Positions 1,905 to 13,221 of a stretch of DNA of 64,000 nucleotides are shown here, in pieces; positions within the stretch are counted from its first letter, which is position 1, and each line of letters starts with the position of its first letter. This stretch comes from Allobosea sp. Root483D1 (GTDB taxonomy: Bacteria > Pseudomonadota > Alphaproteobacteria > Rhizobiales > Beijerinckiaceae). The translations under genes were made by a program, and so were the position numbers. The notes below the pieces were generated by a model that saw only the letters and a list, made by a program, of their open reading frames with translations, did not search any database and was not told the origin of the DNA. The stretch covers positions 273,931-337,930 of the forward strand of contig NZ_LMJW01000023.1 of NCBI RefSeq assembly GCF_001429505.1, read 5' to 3'.

Positions 1905-2016
1905 TTGCTCATTTTTTTATGATCAAATAATATCAGTTGAACATATATTGATGGTCAATTCAGCTTTCTCCGCTCATATATGAATGTTAATTATCTCCCA
2001 GGTTGGACACATAATC
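1905..2016 (+). promoter_or_regulatory. AT-rich promoter region of the mobile mystery A/B operon
   Basis: This stretch is strikingly AT-rich against GC-rich flanks and lies directly before the A gene. It holds TATA-like tracts (ATAATAT, CATATAT twice) and imperfect dyads such as TTGA...TCAA at ~1935-1960. I infer a promoter with an operator for the HTH protein encoded next. No exact -35/-10 pair is claimed. Confidence 0.4.
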
Positions 2017-2478
2017 ATGAACCCAAACCAAGCTGCCCTGGCGCGTAAGCAACTGGAACGACGAGTTGCGCCCTTACGCGATTTAAATGTCGTCGCTCCA
2101 CCCCGCGGCTGGATGAAGGCCATCCGCGAAGCTCTGGGCATGAGCACCCGGCAGCTCGCCGCTCGCATGAAGGCGGCTCCGTCCCGCGTCCCTGCTATTG
2201 AAAAGGCGGAAGTCTCTGGCGCCACAACGATCAGAACGCTGCGCGAGGCGGCCGCAGCGATGAACTGCACATTCGTCTACGCTTTCGTTCCGACCAAGCC
2301 CCTCGACGAAATTCTGCGCGACCGCGCCGCTCAGAAAGCGGGTCGAGATATCATACGCCTCGACCACACCATGCGACTGGAAAACCAGGCACTCCTGAAG
2401 TCGGATCTCGACGAGGAGCGGCGCCGCATAATCGACGTCATCCTCTCAGGCTCCCCGCGCAGACTTTGGGACGATTGA
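2017..2478 (+). CDS. Mobile mystery protein A (HTH antitoxin-like partner)
   Basis: A 153-residue protein with a central helix-turn-helix (MKAIREALGMSTRQLAARMK, then VPAIEKAEVSGATTIRTLRE). N-terminal LARKQLERRVAPL and C-terminal DHTMRLENQALL are the hallmarks of mobile mystery protein A. The ATG at 2017 is preferred over 1984 because MNPNQAALARKQLE is the usual family start. The gene ends 9 bp before the Fic gene, so the two are co-transcribed. By context it is the DNA-binding, probably neutralising partner of the Fic protein. The pair is typical of mobile elements, and its molecular targets are not established. Confidence 0.85.
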   Translation: MNPNQAALARKQLERRVAPLRDLNVVAPPRGWMKAIREALGMSTRQLAARMKAAPSRVPAIEKAEVSGATTIRTLREAAAAMNCTFVYAFVPTKPLDEILRDRAAQKAGRDIIRLDHTMRLENQALLKSDLDEERRRIIDVILSGSPRRLWDD

Positions 2479-2487
2479 ATAATCGCC

Positions 2488-3078
2488 ATGCCCGACCCGC
2501 TATTCGATGAGGACGATGACGCCAATACGCCGCTGACCGCTGAGGAACGCGAGCAGCTCATCCCCGCATACATCACCTTGCGACATGAGCTGAACGAGGC
2601 CGAGCAGGTCAACATCGGCGAGGCGCTGCGCTGGGCGATGTCGCGCAAGCGCGATGTCCTCGATCAGGACTTCCTGAGCGAATTGCACAGACGCATGTTC
2701 GGCGACGTCTGGCGCTGGGCCGGGCAATATCGCACGACCGCGCGGAACATCGGCGTCGACGCCTATCGCATTGCGACGGATGTCAGGCAGCTCGTCGACG
2801 ATGCACGGTATTGGGTCAAGCATGGGACCTTTCCGCCCGATGAAACCGCCGTACGGTTCAGCCATCGTCTCGTCGCCATCCATCCTTTCCCGAATGGCAA
2901 CGGACGGCTCTCTCGCCTCGTCGGCGACCTCCTTGCTCGCCAGCTCGGCCAACCCGCCTTCTCCTGGGGGCGCTCAAGCCTGATCGACGCAGGCGCGACA
3001 CGTGTCCATTATGTCGAGGCGCTCTGGGCGGCCGATAATCACGACATCGAGCCGTTGCTTCTCTTCGCCCGTTCCTAG
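2488..3078 (+). CDS. Mobile mystery protein B, Fic/DOC-family protein
   Basis: A 196-residue Fic-domain protein. The catalytic motif HPFPNGNGR starts at about residue 132 and fits HxFx(D/N)GNGR, the AMP-transferase signature whose histidine is catalytic. An upstream helix with LHRRMFGDVWRWAGQYR is also typical. Fic enzymes transfer AMP (or other nucleotide moieties) to hydroxyl side chains of target proteins. It is the second gene of the A/B pair, with a 9-bp gap. I see no inhibitory (S/T)xxxE(G/N) helix that I could assign confidently. The substrate is unknown. Confidence 0.85.
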   Translation: MPDPLFDEDDDANTPLTAEEREQLIPAYITLRHELNEAEQVNIGEALRWAMSRKRDVLDQDFLSELHRRMFGDVWRWAGQYRTTARNIGVDAYRIATDVRQLVDDARYWVKHGTFPPDETAVRFSHRLVAIHPFPNGNGRLSRLVGDLLARQLGQPAFSWGRSSLIDAGATRVHYVEALWAADNHDIEPLLLFARS

Positions 3079-5887: not shown

Positions 5888-7090
5888 CTATAAAATCCCC
5901 CAGGCCCGGTAGCGCTTCCGGCCGGTGAGCTCGCGCGGCAGGCTGCCGCCGAGCTCCCTCATCATCGCGTCGATCGCCTGCGGCGAGACGTTCAACCGCA
6001 CTGATGCCAGTTGCACGGTGACCAGCGGCGACGACACGAACAGCTCGACCAGCTCCGCCAATTTCGAATTCCCCCGCCGGCCCTCGCACTTCCGCAGCAT
6101 TAGCTCCCGAGCCAATGCAAGCCGGTCGCAATCCGCCTGACCGAACGCCGCCGCCTCGCCAAAAGCGCCAAGCAGCCCCGCAACCCGGACGCTGCGCGCC
6201 AAATGCGGGCTCCACCGGAATTTCCCCCGCCTCAACCCCAGCCCGAGCGCCGGCAGATGCGCCGCCGCCAGCCCGCGCTGCCGCAAAATCGTCGCGGCGA
6301 ACGCAAAGCCGAGCTCGCCGGCGCGTTCGGAGGGCTCGAGCCAAAGCCAGGCATCGAGCGCGAGTGCGGCGGCGAGCGCCGCCGGCAGCCCCCTCCCCTC
6401 CTCCAGGATGGTGAGCCAGCGCGCGAACCGTCCGGCGGCGTCATAGCCCGGATCGCGCAGTGTCAGGTTTCTGCGGCCATCGTCGGAGGACAGATCGTTC
6501 CAGGCATCGAGCTTTTTTCGCGTGCGCACCAAGAGTGCATCGATCTCGGCGAAGGCCGGATCGGCAGAATCGTCCTCCTCGCCTAGGTCGAATTCATCCT
6601 GGTCGACGGGGCCTTCCTCGTCGTCTTCACGGTCGATCCGGACCCAGGGTGCTGCGACCATTTTCGTAGCTTCCGGCGTCGTCGCACTCCTGTCCGACCT
6701 ATCTTCTTCCGGTGATGCACCGATGCCAAGCCGCAGCCGAAGGGCACTGGCGCCCAAGACTTCCGCCGGCTCGCGTCGGGCCAGGCGCCGGCGCTCGTCC
6801 AGGATGGTCGCGGCCCGGGCGATTTCGCGGGTGGGGCTGCGCACATCCATGCCGGCGTCGTGCAGGACGAGGTCTTCGAGCGGGCACAGGCCGCCGCTGA
6901 GCCCGATCAGCGCCTGAGCCTCAAAGGCGTGCCCGCGCTGGCGCACGCCCTCGGCCAGGACCGGCTCGGCGCGGGCGAGCCGCTCATCGAAGCGGACGAG
7001 CGCGATTGACGCGGCTTCAGAGGCTGCTGCGCAGTCCGAAACCAGCGCCTGGCGATCAGCATAAGGGAAATCGTAGCGGATTGAATTCAC
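5888..7090 (-). CDS. RHE_PE00001-family protein (DUF1612 plus C-terminal HTH)
   Basis: A 400-residue protein of the RHE_PE00001 family, found on rhizobial plasmids. The N-terminus (YADRQALVSDCAAASEAASI, then ALIGLSGGLCPLEDLVLHDA) is the DUF1612 region. A Glu/Asp-rich linker lies near residues 150-190. The C-terminus (VQLASVRLNVSPQAIDAMMR, ending in GRKRYRAWGIL) is a helix-turn-helix. The biochemical role is unknown. It is transcribed away from the tyrosine recombinase at 7308, and the gap between them holds a large dyad, suggesting a functional pair in which this protein could bind the dyad as regulator or accessory factor. Confidence 0.8.
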   Translation of the reverse strand: MNSIRYDFPYADRQALVSDCAAASEAASIALVRFDERLARAEPVLAEGVRQRGHAFEAQALIGLSGGLCPLEDLVLHDAGMDVRSPTREIARAATILDERRRLARREPAEVLGASALRLRLGIGASPEEDRSDRSATTPEATKMVAAPWVRIDREDDEEGPVDQDEFDLGEEDDSADPAFAEIDALLVRTRKKLDAWNDLSSDDGRRNLTLRDPGYDAAGRFARWLTILEEGRGLPAALAAALALDAWLWLEPSERAGELGFAFAATILRQRGLAAAHLPALGLGLRRGKFRWSPHLARSVRVAGLLGAFGEAAAFGQADCDRLALARELMLRKCEGRRGNSKLAELVELFVSSPLVTVQLASVRLNVSPQAIDAMMRELGGSLPRELTGRKRYRAWGIL

Positions 7091-7163
7091 CCAATTATTC
7101 TACCATACCCAATCTAAATATCTATTTGTTTGTTTCACATCGACATCAACCAGTACCTGTCAC

Positions 7164-7196
7164 TCACTATCGATAATTACATCTTATCGATAGTGA
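7164..7196. promoter_or_regulatory. loxP-like 13-7-13 bp perfect dyad between recombinase and RHE_PE00001 gene
   Basis: Left arm TCACTATCGATAA (7164-7176), spacer TTACATC (7177-7183), right arm TTATCGATAGTGA (7184-7196). The arms are exact reverse complements over 13 bp and the 7-bp spacer is asymmetric. That is the architecture of a core site for a tyrosine recombinase, and such a gene starts 112 bp away. It could instead be an operator for the divergent HTH protein. The site is AT-rich against its surroundings. Confidence 0.6.
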
Positions 7197-7307
7197 TGGA
7201 CATAGGCCCGGACATCGGCGATTCTGGCGCTCCAAACCGCCGCCGGCGACGTCAGTCGGTCGTCCGGTCGACGAAATCGGCCCGCGTCAGCCGCAGCAAG
7301 AGCGCCC

Positions 7308-8474
7308 ATGACCTCGACATCCCTGCTCTCGGCCGAGACAGAAACGCGGCGCGCCCTGCAGCTCGACGCGCTCGCCGGCATTTTGCCGCTGGAGCGTCGC
7401 GACAAGCTGGCCACCATTCTGACCGATGATGATGTCGCGACGCTTCGGCACCTGGCCAAGGAGGGCATGGGCGAGAACTCGCTCCGCGCGCTGGCCTCGG
7501 ATCTGGCCTATCTCGAAGCCTGGTCATTCGCTTCGACAGGCTCTGCCCTGCCCTGGCCGGCGCCCGAAGCGCTGGTGTTGAAATTCGTCGCCCATCATCT
7601 CTGGGATCCGACACAACGCGAAAGCGATCCCGCGCATGGCATGCCAGCCGAGGTCGACGCCGCCCTGCGCGCCGGCGACCATTTGCGCAGCGAGGGCCCC
7701 CACGCGCCCTCGACGGTCAAACGCCGCCTGGCGCATTGGGCGACCCTGCATCGTTGGAAGGGACTTGAAAGCCCGCTCGGCACGCCGGCGATCCGCACCA
7801 GCATGCGCCTTGCGGTCAGGGCCAGCGCAAAACCGCGCCGGCGCAAAAGCAAACGCGCGGTGACGCGCGACATTTTGGACCGCCTGATCGCGACCTGTCA
7901 GACCGACCGCCTCGCCGACACGCGCGATCTTGCCATCCTGCTCGTCGCCTTCGCCTCCGGTGGGCGCCGGCGCAGCGAGGTCGCGCGGTTACGCCTCGAG
8001 CAGCTCACCCTTGAGGCCGATGTCCCGCTCGATCCTGATGACCCAAACTCACCGCGCCTGCCCTGCATGGCGATCGCGCTGGGCCGCACCAAAACCGCTC
8101 AGGCCGACGATGATGCCCGGGTTCTGCTGATCGGGCCGCCCGTGGCGGCGCTGCGCGAATGGATCGAGCGCGCCGCCATCAAGACGGGGGCCGTGTTCCG
8201 GGCGATCGACCGCTGGGAGGCGATCGACGACCGCGCGCTGACGCCGCAGGCGATCAACCTGATCCTGAAGCGACGCTGCGCCATGGCCGGGCTCGAGCCG
8301 ATCGAGTTTTCCGCGCATGGCCTGCGCTCTGGCTATCTCACTGAAGCGGCGCGCACCGGCGTCACCCTGCCCGCCGCCATGCGCCAATCCCAGCATCGCT
8401 CGGTCCAGCAGGCCGCGCGCTACTATAATGACGCCGACCAGGCGCTGGGCAAGGCCGCAAGGCTAGCGATCTGA
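7308..8474 (+). CDS. Tyrosine-type site-specific recombinase
   Basis: A 388-residue protein with an N-terminal core-binding domain (ATLRHLAKEGMGENSLRALA, then APSTVKRRLAHWATLHRW) and a C-terminal catalytic domain. Visible catalytic residues are Arg in SGGRRRSEVARLRL (~residue 221), the H-x-x-R box in SAHGLRSGYLTEAA (~336), and the nucleophile in ARYYND (~371). Such enzymes cut and rejoin DNA at short inverted-repeat sites, and on plasmids they resolve multimers or drive cointegration. The dyad at 7164-7196 is the obvious candidate target. I infer a dimer-resolution role, although integration of the plasmid or a neighbour is also possible. Confidence 0.85.
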   Translation: MTSTSLLSAETETRRALQLDALAGILPLERRDKLATILTDDDVATLRHLAKEGMGENSLRALASDLAYLEAWSFASTGSALPWPAPEALVLKFVAHHLWDPTQRESDPAHGMPAEVDAALRAGDHLRSEGPHAPSTVKRRLAHWATLHRWKGLESPLGTPAIRTSMRLAVRASAKPRRRKSKRAVTRDILDRLIATCQTDRLADTRDLAILLVAFASGGRRRSEVARLRLEQLTLEADVPLDPDDPNSPRLPCMAIALGRTKTAQADDDARVLLIGPPVAALREWIERAAIKTGAVFRAIDRWEAIDDRALTPQAINLILKRRCAMAGLEPIEFSAHGLRSGYLTEAARTGVTLPAAMRQSQHRSVQQAARYYNDADQALGKAARLAI

Positions 8475-9470: not shown

Positions 9471-10700
9471 TCAGGCCCGCTTCTTTTCGCGTCGCCGGCT
9501 GCCTATCAACGCCATCAGCATCGGCCCAAGCGAAAACTCGGCCGCTTGCGCCTTTCGCGTCAACTCGCGCAAATAGCCGCCGGCGCTGGTGATCGCCTCG
9601 CCGCGTTGCAGGATCGCCGCCACTACGATCGAGGCCTGAACTTCGTCCATTATGCCGATGGCGTCTTCCCAGGCACTCGGGCTGATCCCCAGCATCGGCC
9701 GGACGACAGCGACCGTCGCCAAAAAGTCGCGCCAGTTCGCAATCCCGCCCCTCGAATAGTCGATCAGGTCCGGGCAGGCGTCCAAAACCATCCCCAGCGG
9801 GAACGTCCCTTCCGGCATCCGCTTCGGTTCCGGCACGATCTCCAAACCACCCCCCCTGCTTTCTGGAAAGCTAGGTTCAAGATCAGGAAGGGAGTCTGGA
9901 TTTGAATTCTGTATGTGACGCTCAATATGAGACTCATTGCCGCTCATATTTTGAACTTTGATATGATTTTCCAGTAGGTTGAGGATTTCGTCGGCCAGCA
10001 GCGAGAGTTCCTCGGCAATCGGCTCCAGCGTCAGACGCGTCGCGCTGCGCGGAATCCGCGCCATGATATCGCGATAGAGCTGGTGAATCTCGGCCCACTC
10101 GGCAGGGCCCTGGCCACCGTGCCGCGTCGGGACGCCCTCCTCGAGCCCCGTCGCGATCATCTTGACGATGTCGCGCCGGCAGATCGTGATCCGCTCCCGG
10201 ACCAGGCGTAGCGCCCGGGCTTCGGTCTCGACCTCGTCGGCCAGGGCTTCGAATTCCTCAGACCGCACGACCAGAGGGGCGAGATCGAAGCCGAAAGCGA
10301 GCTCGATCTCGCCTGCCCTGCCCTTACGGGCATAGCGCTTGCCGTTGGGGCTATCGCGCCGGATGATCAGCCCGGTATCGACCAGGGCCGCCAGATGGCG
10401 CCGGAGCGTTGCCATCGGCATCCCGTGCGCCCGCAAGGAGAGCTGCTGGTTCGATGGGAAAACAACGAGGCCTTCACCGGTCAGAACGGTTTCGGGGTGA
10501 AAGGACAACAGCGCGTCCAAGACAGCCAGGGCGCGCTCTGGGACGCCGAGCGCGTTCTTGGCCGTGCAGATCGCGCGGAAGATGTTCCATTTGTGAACCG
10601 CTTTCTCCGGCGGCCGTGTCTTTGCGCTCGCCTGACTTGCCACATGCGCAAGCGTCAGCGATCGCCGCCCGAAGGGCGTCGTCGAGAGTCGTGAGTCCAT
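9471..10700 (-). CDS. repC: RepC replication initiator
   Basis: A 409-residue RepC-type initiator, third gene of the repABC operon. RepC binds and opens the plasmid origin, which in this family lies inside repC itself. Recognisable features are the N-terminal winged-helix region (SNQQLSLRAHGMPMATLRRH, then LVDTGLIIRRDSPNGKRYA) and the C-terminal RepC signature (AGGYLRELTRKAQAAEF, then LGPMLMALIGSRRRE). It starts 163 bp after repB, and the intervening gap encodes an antisense RNA. Coding sequence near 9900-9980 is unusually AT-rich. A second 3' copy of repC lies at 45978-46145. Confidence 0.93.
   Translation of the reverse strand: MDSRLSTTPFGRRSLTLAHVASQASAKTRPPEKAVHKWNIFRAICTAKNALGVPERALAVLDALLSFHPETVLTGEGLVVFPSNQQLSLRAHGMPMATLRRHLAALVDTGLIIRRDSPNGKRYARKGRAGEIELAFGFDLAPLVVRSEEFEALADEVETEARALRLVRERITICRRDIVKMIATGLEEGVPTRHGGQGPAEWAEIHQLYRDIMARIPRSATRLTLEPIAEELSLLADEILNLLENHIKVQNMSGNESHIERHIQNSNPDSLPDLEPSFPESRGGGLEIVPEPKRMPEGTFPLGMVLDACPDLIDYSRGGIANWRDFLATVAVVRPMLGISPSAWEDAIGIMDEVQASIVVAAILQRGEAITSAGGYLRELTRKAQAAEFSLGPMLMALIGSRRREKKRA
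9895..9980. other. Candidate oriV: AT-rich island with inverted repeat inside repC
   Basis: Within repC this stretch is clearly AT-rich and encodes an Asn/His/Ser-rich linker (NHIKVQNMSGNESHIERHIQ). It contains an inverted repeat, AATATGAG at 9924-9931 and CTCATATT at 9943-9950, and CTCA-containing near-repeats about 10-12 bp apart. Established knowledge places oriV of repABC plasmids in an AT-rich segment of repC. Assignment here is by that analogy. Confidence 0.5.
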
Positions 10701-10768
10701 GATCCCTGCCGTTTTTAGGGCAAAGGAAAACGGCTCGCCGAAACGGCGCGGAATCTCGCAAGAGACTC

Positions 10769-10853
10769 TTGACGGTGATTCGTGGAAGTGCGATTCTGCG
10801 TTTGCTTAGGACACAGAGAAGGGCTTCCGGAACATCGTTTCGGGGGCCTTTTT
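10769..10853 (+). ncRNA. incA: Counter-transcribed RNA (incA-type) controlling repC
   Basis: Opposite in strand to repABC and within the repB-repC gap. A promoter TTGACG (10769-10774), 17-bp spacer and GATTCT (10792-10797) predict a start near 10804. An intrinsic terminator follows: stem arms 10822-10833 (GGCTTCCGGAAC) and 10837-10848 (GTTTCGGGGGCC) pair over 12 positions including wobbles, with a 3-nt loop and then TTTTTC. The RNA would be about 50 nt. RepABC plasmids use such antisense RNAs to block repC expression and to set incompatibility and copy number. Confidence 0.75.
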
Positions 10854-10863
10854 CTTTTGCGGG

Positions 10864-11853
10864 CTAATCTCCGTTTGTGGTTGCACCCGCCCGACGCCTG
10901 AAATCATCGTACAGACGATCCAGATTATCGGACAAATATTGGCCGAACGCCTTGGCATCCGGTCCCTTGGCCTTAATCGCCAAAGTGAATTTTCGCCCCT
11001 CGGCCAGCATCTCCGCCGCGACGGCACCGTCGCTTGGAGTCCACCTTTGCTTATCGGGTTCGCTGCGGCTGCGGCTCTGTTTTGCCTTGAGGCGGCGTTC
11101 AACAGCAGCGAAGCGCTCTTCTGTGGGGAGTTCTGCAAAGCCTTCGGCATCGACCACGGCGATTGCCGCCTCGTAATGCGATGGGCGTTCGAGCAGCAGC
11201 TTCAAATCATACCAACGATCGCGGCCGATACCCTTCGCCGGTCCGATTGCCCGCAGCACCTTTTCGGGAAGGCTCGCGACGGAGAGCATCTTCGAAAGGG
11301 TCGACCTGTCCAGGGCAAGAGCGGTCATGACGATGGCGTTGTCATCGTCATAACGCAGCTTCGCCAGTTTGGACGCATACAACGCCTTTTCGATGAAGGA
11401 GAGATTCGCGCGGGCCGAATTCTCCTGGCCCTGGGCAACCACGTGTTCCTGGTCCTTCATCTCCTTGATGACGGCCCGGACCTTGCGGCCGAGGAGCTTG
11501 GCGACTTTCAGGCGGCGATGGCCGAAGACCACCATATAGCGCTGGCTCGAGACCGGGTGAGGGCGCACGAGAATCGGGCTGTCCTGCCCGCGCGCGCGGA
11601 TCGCTTCCAGGATCTCATTGAAGTCCTGCTCGTTCTCTTCGAGTCGATCCTTGACGAAGGAGGGATCGACGGTATCGGGATCGAGTTCGACTATAGGCTC
11701 GCCTTCCATGAGCCTGTCGGCGCGCGCAGTGATCTCGTTGAGCGAATTCAGGAAGGATTTCGACGCACCCTTGATTGCATAGTCAAGCGCGGGCTGCTTC
11801 TCAGAAGGAGCATCCTCGGTCATCAGGTTTGCGAAGGGATTTTTACGAGCCAC
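10864..11853 (-). CDS. repB: RepB, ParB-type partitioning protein
   Basis: A 329-residue RepB. Residues ~50-150 hold the ParB N-terminal domain (VELDPDTVDPSFVKDRLEEN, ILVRPHPVSSQRYMVVFGHR, later ENSARANLSFIEKALYA), followed by the HTH region with ALDRSTLSKMLSVASLPEKV. RepB binds parS sites, loads onto DNA and is moved by the RepA ATPase. The start MARKNPFANLM is the family consensus. It follows repA by 72 bp in one operon. No perfect parS was identified with certainty. Confidence 0.93.
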   Translation of the reverse strand: MARKNPFANLMTEDAPSEKQPALDYAIKGASKSFLNSLNEITARADRLMEGEPIVELDPDTVDPSFVKDRLEENEQDFNEILEAIRARGQDSPILVRPHPVSSQRYMVVFGHRRLKVAKLLGRKVRAVIKEMKDQEHVVAQGQENSARANLSFIEKALYASKLAKLRYDDDNAIVMTALALDRSTLSKMLSVASLPEKVLRAIGPAKGIGRDRWYDLKLLLERPSHYEAAIAVVDAEGFAELPTEERFAAVERRLKAKQSRSRSEPDKQRWTPSDGAVAAEMLAEGRKFTLAIKAKGPDAKAFGQYLSDNLDRLYDDFRRRAGATTNGD

Positions 11854-11925
11854 TCCGCGGCCTCCTCATGGGGCGCATGCCCTTGAAATAGAAGTTGTTT
11901 TTGTCCGTTTTTACGGCGGTCAACA

Positions 11926-13113
11926 TCACAGCCGCCCCCATGCCTGATGGATGAGACCTTGCACTTCGAAATTGACTGCATCCATGCACTCGATCGCGCG
12001 ATCATATGTTTCGCGCGTGAAGTTCGCTCGCTCCACCTCATAGAGCGTCTGCTTAGTCAAACCGGCATCTGAAATCGCGGTCGACTTCACCATCTGCGCC
12101 TTAAGCATTTCCGCTGCGAGCATGCTCTGCATGAGGCCAAGCATCTCGACCTGCGGCACGTCCGTCGGCTCGAAGCGGGTGATGAGATAGCGCAGCCAGT
12201 CCATGCGAACTTCGGCTCCTGCGTCCTTGATGGTCTTGGCTATATTCCCGAGCATCAGCAGGAACTGGCTCATGGACATCAGATCCAGCATCTGCGGATG
12301 AACTGTGATGAGAACCGATGTCGCCGCGATCAGCGCCGTTAGCGTCAGGTAGCCGAGTTGGGGCGGGCAATCGACGACGACGACGTCATAGGAGGAATCG
12401 ACCTCCTTCAGCGCGTTACCGAAACGCGTGAAGAAGCGCTTGCCCTCAGCCGAATTCTGCATCGCCAAAGGCGTGTCGTATTCGTATTCCTGAAGCTCAA
12501 GGTTTGCAGGAATGACGTCCAGTGATGGGAAGTTCGTCGGCAGGATAACGTCCCGAATGGACTTGCGCTGTTCATCGTAACGGATTGCGTCATAAAGCGA
12601 GGGGTTCTTGTCGAGCTCCGGCTGAAATCCATACAACGCCGATAGTGAAGCTTGCGGATCGAGATCGACGGCGAGGACCCTGTGGCCAGTCAATGCGAGG
12701 TGCTGCGCCAGATGTGCCGCCGTCGTGGTCTTGCCCGAGCCTCCCTTGAAGTTGACGACGGCGATGACCTGCAGCTTCTCACCCGGCTTGCGGTGAGGGA
12801 CGTATTTCTTGACCTCTGACCGACCGTTCTTATCGAGATAATGACGCAGCTCGAGCATTTGCTCTGCGGTATAGAAGCGGCGCCCGCCGGCGCCGGTCGA
12901 AGGCTTCGGCCCTTTGCCTTCGAGATGAAGGCGCTTGAGATTGTTGGGACTGACGCCCAGATAGTGGGCTACCTCCGCCATGGGGAAACGCCTCAGCGTC
13001 TTCTGGGCATTGGGCGGAAATTTCTCCAAGCGAAGTTGATTAAGCTTGCGCGAGATCTCCGCGCCCTGTTGGAGAATTTTATCGTCAAACTCGAACGGAG
13101 CGAGGGCGTTCAT
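11926..13113 (-). CDS. repA: RepA, ParA-type partitioning ATPase
   Basis: A 395-residue RepA with an N-terminal winged HTH (AEVAHYLGVSPNNLKRLHLE) and a deviant Walker A, KGGSGKTT at residues 123-130, then VDLDPQASLSALYGF and VVVDCPPQLGYLTL (Walker B region). It drives plasmid segregation with RepB and represses the repABC promoter. The ATG at 13113 (MNALAPFEF) is preferred over an upstream start at 13197, because residues before it are not family-like. First gene of the replication operon. Confidence 0.93.
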   Translation of the reverse strand: MNALAPFEFDDKILQQGAEISRKLNQLRLEKFPPNAQKTLRRFPMAEVAHYLGVSPNNLKRLHLEGKGPKPSTGAGGRRFYTAEQMLELRHYLDKNGRSEVKKYVPHRKPGEKLQVIAVVNFKGGSGKTTTAAHLAQHLALTGHRVLAVDLDPQASLSALYGFQPELDKNPSLYDAIRYDEQRKSIRDVILPTNFPSLDVIPANLELQEYEYDTPLAMQNSAEGKRFFTRFGNALKEVDSSYDVVVVDCPPQLGYLTLTALIAATSVLITVHPQMLDLMSMSQFLLMLGNIAKTIKDAGAEVRMDWLRYLITRFEPTDVPQVEMLGLMQSMLAAEMLKAQMVKSTAISDAGLTKQTLYEVERANFTRETYDRAIECMDAVNFEVQGLIHQAWGRL

Positions 13114-13142
13114 ATTTCGGATGCCTGGGACCAAATAGCGCC

Positions 13143-13165
13143 AATTCGGCAACTTTCGCCGATTT
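13143..13165. promoter_or_regulatory. Dyad upstream of repA (possible RepA/RepB operator)
   Basis: An imperfect inverted repeat about 30 bp upstream of the repA ATG: arms AATTCGGC and GCCGATTT around a 7-bp spacer, with 7 of 8 positions matching. Its position suits autoregulation of repABC. It is short, so the call is tentative. Confidence 0.3.
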
Positions 13166-13221
13166 GTCGCCAGTATGTCCGATTCGCCCGCTCGCACAAC
13201 AAAAATCAGGTTAATGGAATC

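Follow-up and report, generated by a model that had tools for sequence, protein, structure and literature searches.

The question raised by this locus is what a perfect inverted repeat does between the genes of a tyrosine recombinase and of a protein of the RHE_PE00001 family, close to the replication genes of a repABC plasmid. The window, by which we mean the whole 64-kb stretch of DNA analysed, lies within a contig of 450,822 bases, and its nearest relative among the 79 loci compared comes from Bosea (93% identity). The repeat, here called dyad 1, is a putative core recombination site of the att type at positions 7164-7196, with no strand assigned. It reads TCACTATCGATAA-TTACATC-TTATCGATAGTGA, that is, two perfect 13-bp arms around the asymmetric 7-bp spacer TTACATC; with the arms extended to 19 bp (7158-7202), complementarity is 89%. 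No other dyad in the window has perfect arms of at least 13 bp and a spacer of 5-9 bp, and when the gap between the two genes (7091-7307) was dinucleotide-shuffled 2000 times, an arm of 11 bp was reached in only 2 of the 2000 shuffles. A previous interpretation made from the DNA letters, referred to below as the sequence-only reading, had reported a perfect 33-bp dyad with this geometry in the divergent gap, and the present analysis confirms it.

On one side of the gap stands the RHE_PE00001 family gene (5888-7090, minus strand, GTG start), whose product carries DUF1612 and a C-terminal HTH_13 domain and scores 285.8 bits against NF040876, above the curated cut-off of 250. On the other side, 111 bases from dyad 1, begins the gene of an IntA-family tyrosine recombinase (7308-8474, plus strand), a protein of 388 aa matching Phage_integrase (PF00589, E 1e-12). 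Its residues R221, K262, H337, R340, H363 and Y372, invariant in all 53 aligned sequences (the window's included), are presumably the catalytic ones (R, K, H, R, H/W, Y), as judged from the alignment with Cre and from familiar motifs. Both neighbours, the recombinase with all its catalytic boxes and the protein with a C-terminal HTH, are as the sequence-only reading had described them. About 1 kb past the recombinase follow repC, repB and repA, for plasmid replication and partition (9471-13197, minus strand). Also near the replication region, at 1984-3078, is an ORF that by eye resembles an HTH partner, and next to come is the gene of a 'mobile mystery protein B' with a Fic domain (TIGR02613). 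The whole genome holds one recombinase of the IntA family and one site of the dyad 1 type; a second core without mismatches, found by a looser search (C1:611920), was set aside, since by eye it resembles a terminator hairpin behind a stop codon.

To which known system would such a pair belong? By sequence, the best solved-structure matches to the recombinase are Cre and its derivative Tre (1crx, E 3.4e-07). The site of Cre, loxP of phage P1, has a 13-8-13 arrangement, and the likeness lies in Cre being the nearest solved relative and in the two 13-bp arms around an asymmetric spacer. The differences are a spacer of 7 instead of 8 bp, arms that differ from the well-known letters of loxP, a plasmid instead of a phage, and the presence of a partner gene and a second dyad; with its 13-7-13 site, and with Cre only a distant relative at that E value, the window falls outside Cre/loxP proper. 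Xer recombination at cer and psi takes place at a core site with nearby accessory sites for accessory proteins, and the arrangement proposed here, a core site with a nearby site for a DNA-binding protein, is similar in this respect. Contrary to Xer, there is a single recombinase, the accessory protein would come from another family, and the scores lie far under the cut-offs (XerD, 23.2 against 329.6 bits; XerC, 20.5 against 335.15 bits), which places the enzyme outside XerC/XerD.

The closest counterpart is found in Rhizobium etli. The recombinase is 62% identical (233/373 aa) to the integrase of p42a, which we take to be the IntA described in PMC4928290 because it adjoins attA (statements on this and the other papers cited refer to the portions of their text that were available). 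There, the attA and attD sites of R. etli CFN42 are given as 23-bp sites with the core CGATAA-N7-TTATCG, and this 23-bp core is stated to be required for IntA, which in vivo brings about integration and excision by attA/attD recombination, with fusion of plasmids, and uses attA and attD equally (PMC4928290). In the p42a record attA lies about 100 bp before the integrase gene, a place like that of dyad 1, and in the window the same core is found close to the recombinase gene. The window departs from that system in having a dyad of 33 bp, other outer arm bases and an adjoining RHE_PE00001 gene. A looser likeness, by description, is to the Cre-like 'XerD' (CDS5) of pSmeLPU88b, a tyrosine recombinase downstream of repABC for which the authors suggest a role in plasmid maintenance via dimer resolution; in the text available, neither a site nor an RHE partner is described for it (PMC10194956). 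The sequence-only view of a Cre-like recombinase with a core site thus stands, with 1crx as the best structure match and with IntA fusing plasmids at such sites (PMC4928290), while its presentation of the pair as an undescribed system does not, since the recombinase half belongs to the known IntA system. The module is not new in kind; what is new is the anatomy of the site.

The next question is which of the two genes dyad 1 follows. In a cleaned count of loci, with duplicates removed, longer flanks fetched, and a site defined by a GATA/TATC core together with 8 or more of the 13 arm pairs, dyad 1 is present in 58 of the 59 loci with both genes, in 30 of the 54 with the recombinase only (some of these 54 have short flanks), and in 5 of the 20 with RHE_PE00001 only (an earlier count, with duplicates kept, gave 61/62, 32/54 and 5/19). 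The sequence-only reading had held that a dyad varying freely beside a conserved recombinase would speak against it; no such variation was seen where the dyad was found, and 24 of the 54 recombinase-only loci have no dyad by the site rule. Among the five RHE-only loci with dyad 1, one lies by a contig end (L206), one has a partial RHE_PE00001 gene (L205), one has a serine recombinase (L180), and one is at a contig end with a recombinase at the other end of the same contig (L179); for L204 no circumstance of this sort explains the site. From these frequencies it follows that dyad 1 belongs to the recombinase. In keeping with this, it tracks the recombinase (partial r 0.64, 0/2000) and not the RHE_PE00001 helix (partial r -0.39). 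Its arms vary in compensating pairs, position 5 being T-A in 49 and C-G in 11 of the 73 distinct sites (positions 8-12 are part of the selection rule).

The spacing of the genes could nevertheless be read as that of an operator. In 57 of 63 loci, dyad 1 lies 73-97 bp from the RHE_PE00001 start, also where the recombinase is 2.4 kb off; in the other six (L033, L038, L039, L050, L203 and L204), for which some starts were inferred, the distance is 159-342 bp. This nearly fixed distance, together with the position in a divergent promoter gap, is what would favour dyad 1 being an operator, for RHE_PE00001 or for the recombinase promoter, instead of a crossover site. We regard this as very improbable: 15 of the 20 RHE_PE00001 loci lacking the recombinase also lack dyad 1, for which reason we rejected it as an RHE_PE00001 operator; the distance to the recombinase varies 30-fold (between 79 and 2465 bp where both genes are present); the R. 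etli relative of dyad 1 is, in the available text, a reported recombination site (PMC4928290); and the spacers vary among loci, yet match within genomes. Still another explanation is that the recombinase mainly inserts and removes neighbouring cassettes at dyad 1. Three annotated relatives in which dyad 1 and the recombinase are set apart have different genes in between, coding for toxin-antitoxin, DUF3800 or unnamed proteins, and one locus (L041) has a second site match, with 3 mismatches, between its site and the recombinase. However, that locus apart, no second copy of the site was seen flanking such genes in the loci compared, and the intervening genes seem to form one operon together with that of the recombinase (in one relative, start codons overlap stop codons), so we give hardly any credence to cassette movement as the main activity.

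Cre-like strand exchange needs equal spacers. There are 45 types among the 73 distinct dyad 1 sites. In one genus (g123, of family f24, inferred to be probably Rhizobiaceae), the 7-bp spacer is identical in 35 of 52 within-genome pairs, where permutation gives a mean of 11.7 and none of 5000 permutations reaches 35; one genome (G487) has five sites on five contigs with the common spacer GGGTTAC and differing outer arm bases. In a second genus of the same family (g167), 5 of 40 pairs are identical, against a permuted mean of 1.9 (219/5000). The match within genomes is thus beyond chance in one genus and weak in another; contigs of one replicon and the common ancestry of co-resident plasmids could contribute to it.

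A second element, which the sequence-only reading had missed, emerged when the stretch between dyad 1 and RHE_PE00001 was aligned over the loci. This dyad 2, of 29 bp and mostly starting 27 or 28 bp after dyad 1, keeps its position over clades, whereas its arms vary with the clade. Bradyrhizobium has ACGGAAGCTA, Mesorhizobium has AGTCAACTTA, and Agrobacterium, R. rhizogenes and S. meliloti have AGGAACTNTA, in each case this or a similar sequence; the Bosea clade has AAACAA... We counted it where the best dyad of the flank had at least 7 of 10 pairs and started at +26 to +29 from dyad 1, and compared the counts with 200 shuffles. Of the 61 loci with both genes, 35 had it, or 31 of 45 when the Bosea type is excluded (shuffles: mean 0.6, maximum 3), as did 13 of 22 with the recombinase only (mean 0.4, maximum 4) and 3 of 6 without recombinase (mean 0.08, maximum 1); the opposite flank of dyad 1, searched for the same dyad, gave 0/61, 0/22 and 0/6. 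Only 4 of 16 loci of the Bosea type pass, and the window is among those that fail: its dyad 2 (7107-7135, no strand assigned, 28 bp from dyad 1) has only 6 of 10 pairs, and the best dyad of that flank is at +17. As its own dyad is weak, the assignment of this proposed RHE_PE00001 binding site in the window rests on position and on the relatives.

Dyad 2 is also present where RHE_PE00001 is not. The R. etli plasmids p42a and p42d have no RHE_PE00001 gene, yet they carry ACGGAA...TTCCGT 28 bp from attA and attD, a feature that goes unremarked in the available text of PMC4928290; neither 'accessory' nor 'IHF' was found when that text was searched. The attA fragment primed there (Table 1 primers, p42a 2252-2687) would, by our inference, include dyad 2 too (PMC4928290). 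At p42d (L002:5738-5827) and at two further loci (L175 and L180), att-type sites with dyad 2 adjoin genes of serine recombinases, 64-65% identical to that of pTiC58, and not IntA, as if the serine and IntA kinds replaced each other in one slot.

These observations bear on the main rival to a role of RHE_PE00001 in recombination, according to which dyad 2 is merely the operator of the RHE_PE00001 gene, the spacing to dyad 1 is ancestral, and IntA acts alone at dyad 1. The account would agree with the available text of the IntA paper, which names the 23-bp core only (PMC4928290), and with the existence of RHE_PE00001 genes that have a dyad-2-like sequence and no recombinase nearby. Thus, among the 15 RHE_PE00001 loci that lack both recombinase and dyad 1, 9 show a GGAA...TTCC dyad at 54-69 bp ahead of the start (L084, which is p42e, L090, L091, L092, L096, L097, L098, L123 and L124), while L099, L102, L103 and L121 have other dyads there and L093, with its copy L207, no convincing dyad before the start. 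Against it stands the retention of dyad 2, again at 27-28 bp, by RHE-less loci: 18 of them gave no RHE_PE00001 profile hit over a flank of 2.8 kb or more, and 11 of these 18 keep at least 7 pairs, p42a attA and p42d attD included. In 4 of these 11, however, the RHE_PE00001 start is still seen before it breaks off, and others have, by eye, a start-like stretch; because RHE-less loci often keep this start-codon region, dyad 2 may linger by recency, and recent loss of the gene is a fair rival to selection for dyad 2. We consider an RHE_PE00001 unconnected with recombination somewhat unlikely, with appreciable weight.

Whether RHE_PE00001 itself reads dyad 2 was approached through its recognition helix. 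An Arg at position 4 of the HTH_13 recognition helix occurs together with a G at arm base 4 of dyad 2 in 71 of 75 loci, six of which were re-anchored on dyad 1; the discordant loci are L039, L102, L121 and L196 when one arm is asked, and L039, L093, L121 and L207 when both are. As the position was chosen after viewing the same alignment, the match is post hoc. It is seen within a Mesorhizobium group, where three loci (L043, L053 and L087) have Arg and arms ACGGAAG or ACAGAAG, and six (L049, L051, L052, L054, L056 and L058) have Gln and arms AGTCAA or AGTCCA, the dyad 1 arms being nearly identical between the two sets. On the RHE_PE00001 tree the Arg changed at least 4 times and the G at least 7 times, and independent switch pairs number 2 on well-supported branches and 4 on all, too few for a sign test to reach significance. 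With the rest of RHE_PE00001 held constant, the partial Mantel correlation between helix and dyad 2 is weak (r 0.09, 132/2000). A second contact, between an Arg at helix position 8 and a C at arm base 6, was discarded as independent evidence, being essentially confined to one clade.

Our preferred reading, which we hold to be rather probable, is that of a site-specific recombination module of the repABC plasmid, with IntA-family exchange at dyad 1, RHE_PE00001 on dyad 2 and a possible modulation of the first by the second. By homology, the recombinase would bind both 13-bp arms of dyad 1 and exchange strands within the asymmetric 7-bp spacer, so that plasmid dimers would be resolved in cis, and replicons fused when the site of another plasmid has the same spacer. 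With a single site in the genome, resolution in cis would be the likelier daily use here, and in genomes with several sites the matching spacers speak for fusion, the outcome reported for R. etli. In a second step, for which there is fair support, RHE_PE00001 would bind dyad 2 through its C-terminal HTH and, as dyad 2 stands in front of its own gene, would repress itself. In a third and least certain one, RHE_PE00001 beside the core site may act as an accessory factor, favouring or blocking IntA synapsis or setting its direction. This accessory role, already suggested by the sequence-only reading, finds support in the near-fixed distance from the site to RHE_PE00001 and in a dyad 2 that changes with the helix; it is weakened by the 20 of 79 RHE_PE00001 loci without such a recombinase nearby and by the proposal, in the text available, that RHE_PE00001 on p42e of R. 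etli is essential (PMC9022086), which together imply that the protein has another role. The N-terminus of DUF1612 has been described as Fic-like (PMC2686095), and the RHE_PE00001 profile gave 0 matches to solved structures at E up to 5. In the mainly open-access literature searched, partly as portions of texts, no tie of RHE_PE00001/DUF1612 to recombination and no account of dyad 2 or of RHE_PE00001 as a recombinase partner were found, and the description of its role as lacking a known function holds there.

Other arrangements of the same kind were observed on the way. At L066:2099-4474, a DUF1403 protein (PF07183, E 1e-66), with a C-terminal end that by eye is HTH-like, is divergent from a second tyrosine recombinase, in parallel to the module described above. 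The core dyad of this unit, GATAATGTTGCATTATC, precedes the recombinase by 25 bp and is separated by 84 bp from the start of DUF1403, with a further inverted repeat between, and its core class CCGATAATNTTGCATTATCGG was found in at least 12 genomes of one genus among the matches listed. The DUF1403/second-recombinase unit is present in all five loci (L012, L013, L066, L067 and L078) in which, to the right of dyad 1, RHE_PE00001 has a normal start and breaks off after some 25 codons at a comparable junction, a pattern suggestive of recurrent replacement of, or insertion in, the RHE_PE00001 gene. A literature search for DUF1403 gave nothing. At L111 and L115, from another family of the window's order, HTH_13-like proteins under the family cut-offs are encoded close to a dyad that is CGATAA-N7-TTATCG or resembles it, and a further dyad follows at a distance of 27 bp, possibly a third version of the module.

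A wider conjecture, rather doubtful as a whole, would make RHE_PE00001 (DUF1612) and DUF1403 two branches of one class of cognate accessory factors, which would sit on a second dyad at a fixed distance and from there gate the Cre-like recombinases of plasmids. Co-resident plasmids would then form a fusion network defined by spacers and switched by proteins, in which the RHE_PE00001 of p42e could serve, in trans, attA and attD, which have no RHE_PE00001 gene beside them. In R. etli, according to the available text, IntA offers one of the ways for the symbiotic plasmid to become joined to a conjugative plasmid and be carried along (PMC3224233), and the recombinase of the window has matches over at least 80% of its length in 719 plasmid records. 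Should fusion on many plasmids be controlled by a partner protein that has a site of its own, a family of unknown role would gain a function, and it would become easier to tell which plasmids are able to fuse and at what time; the set of Cre-like tools would also grow by one for which nature supplies many spacers. The locus thus suggests how many plasmids of soil bacteria may control their fusion and separation.
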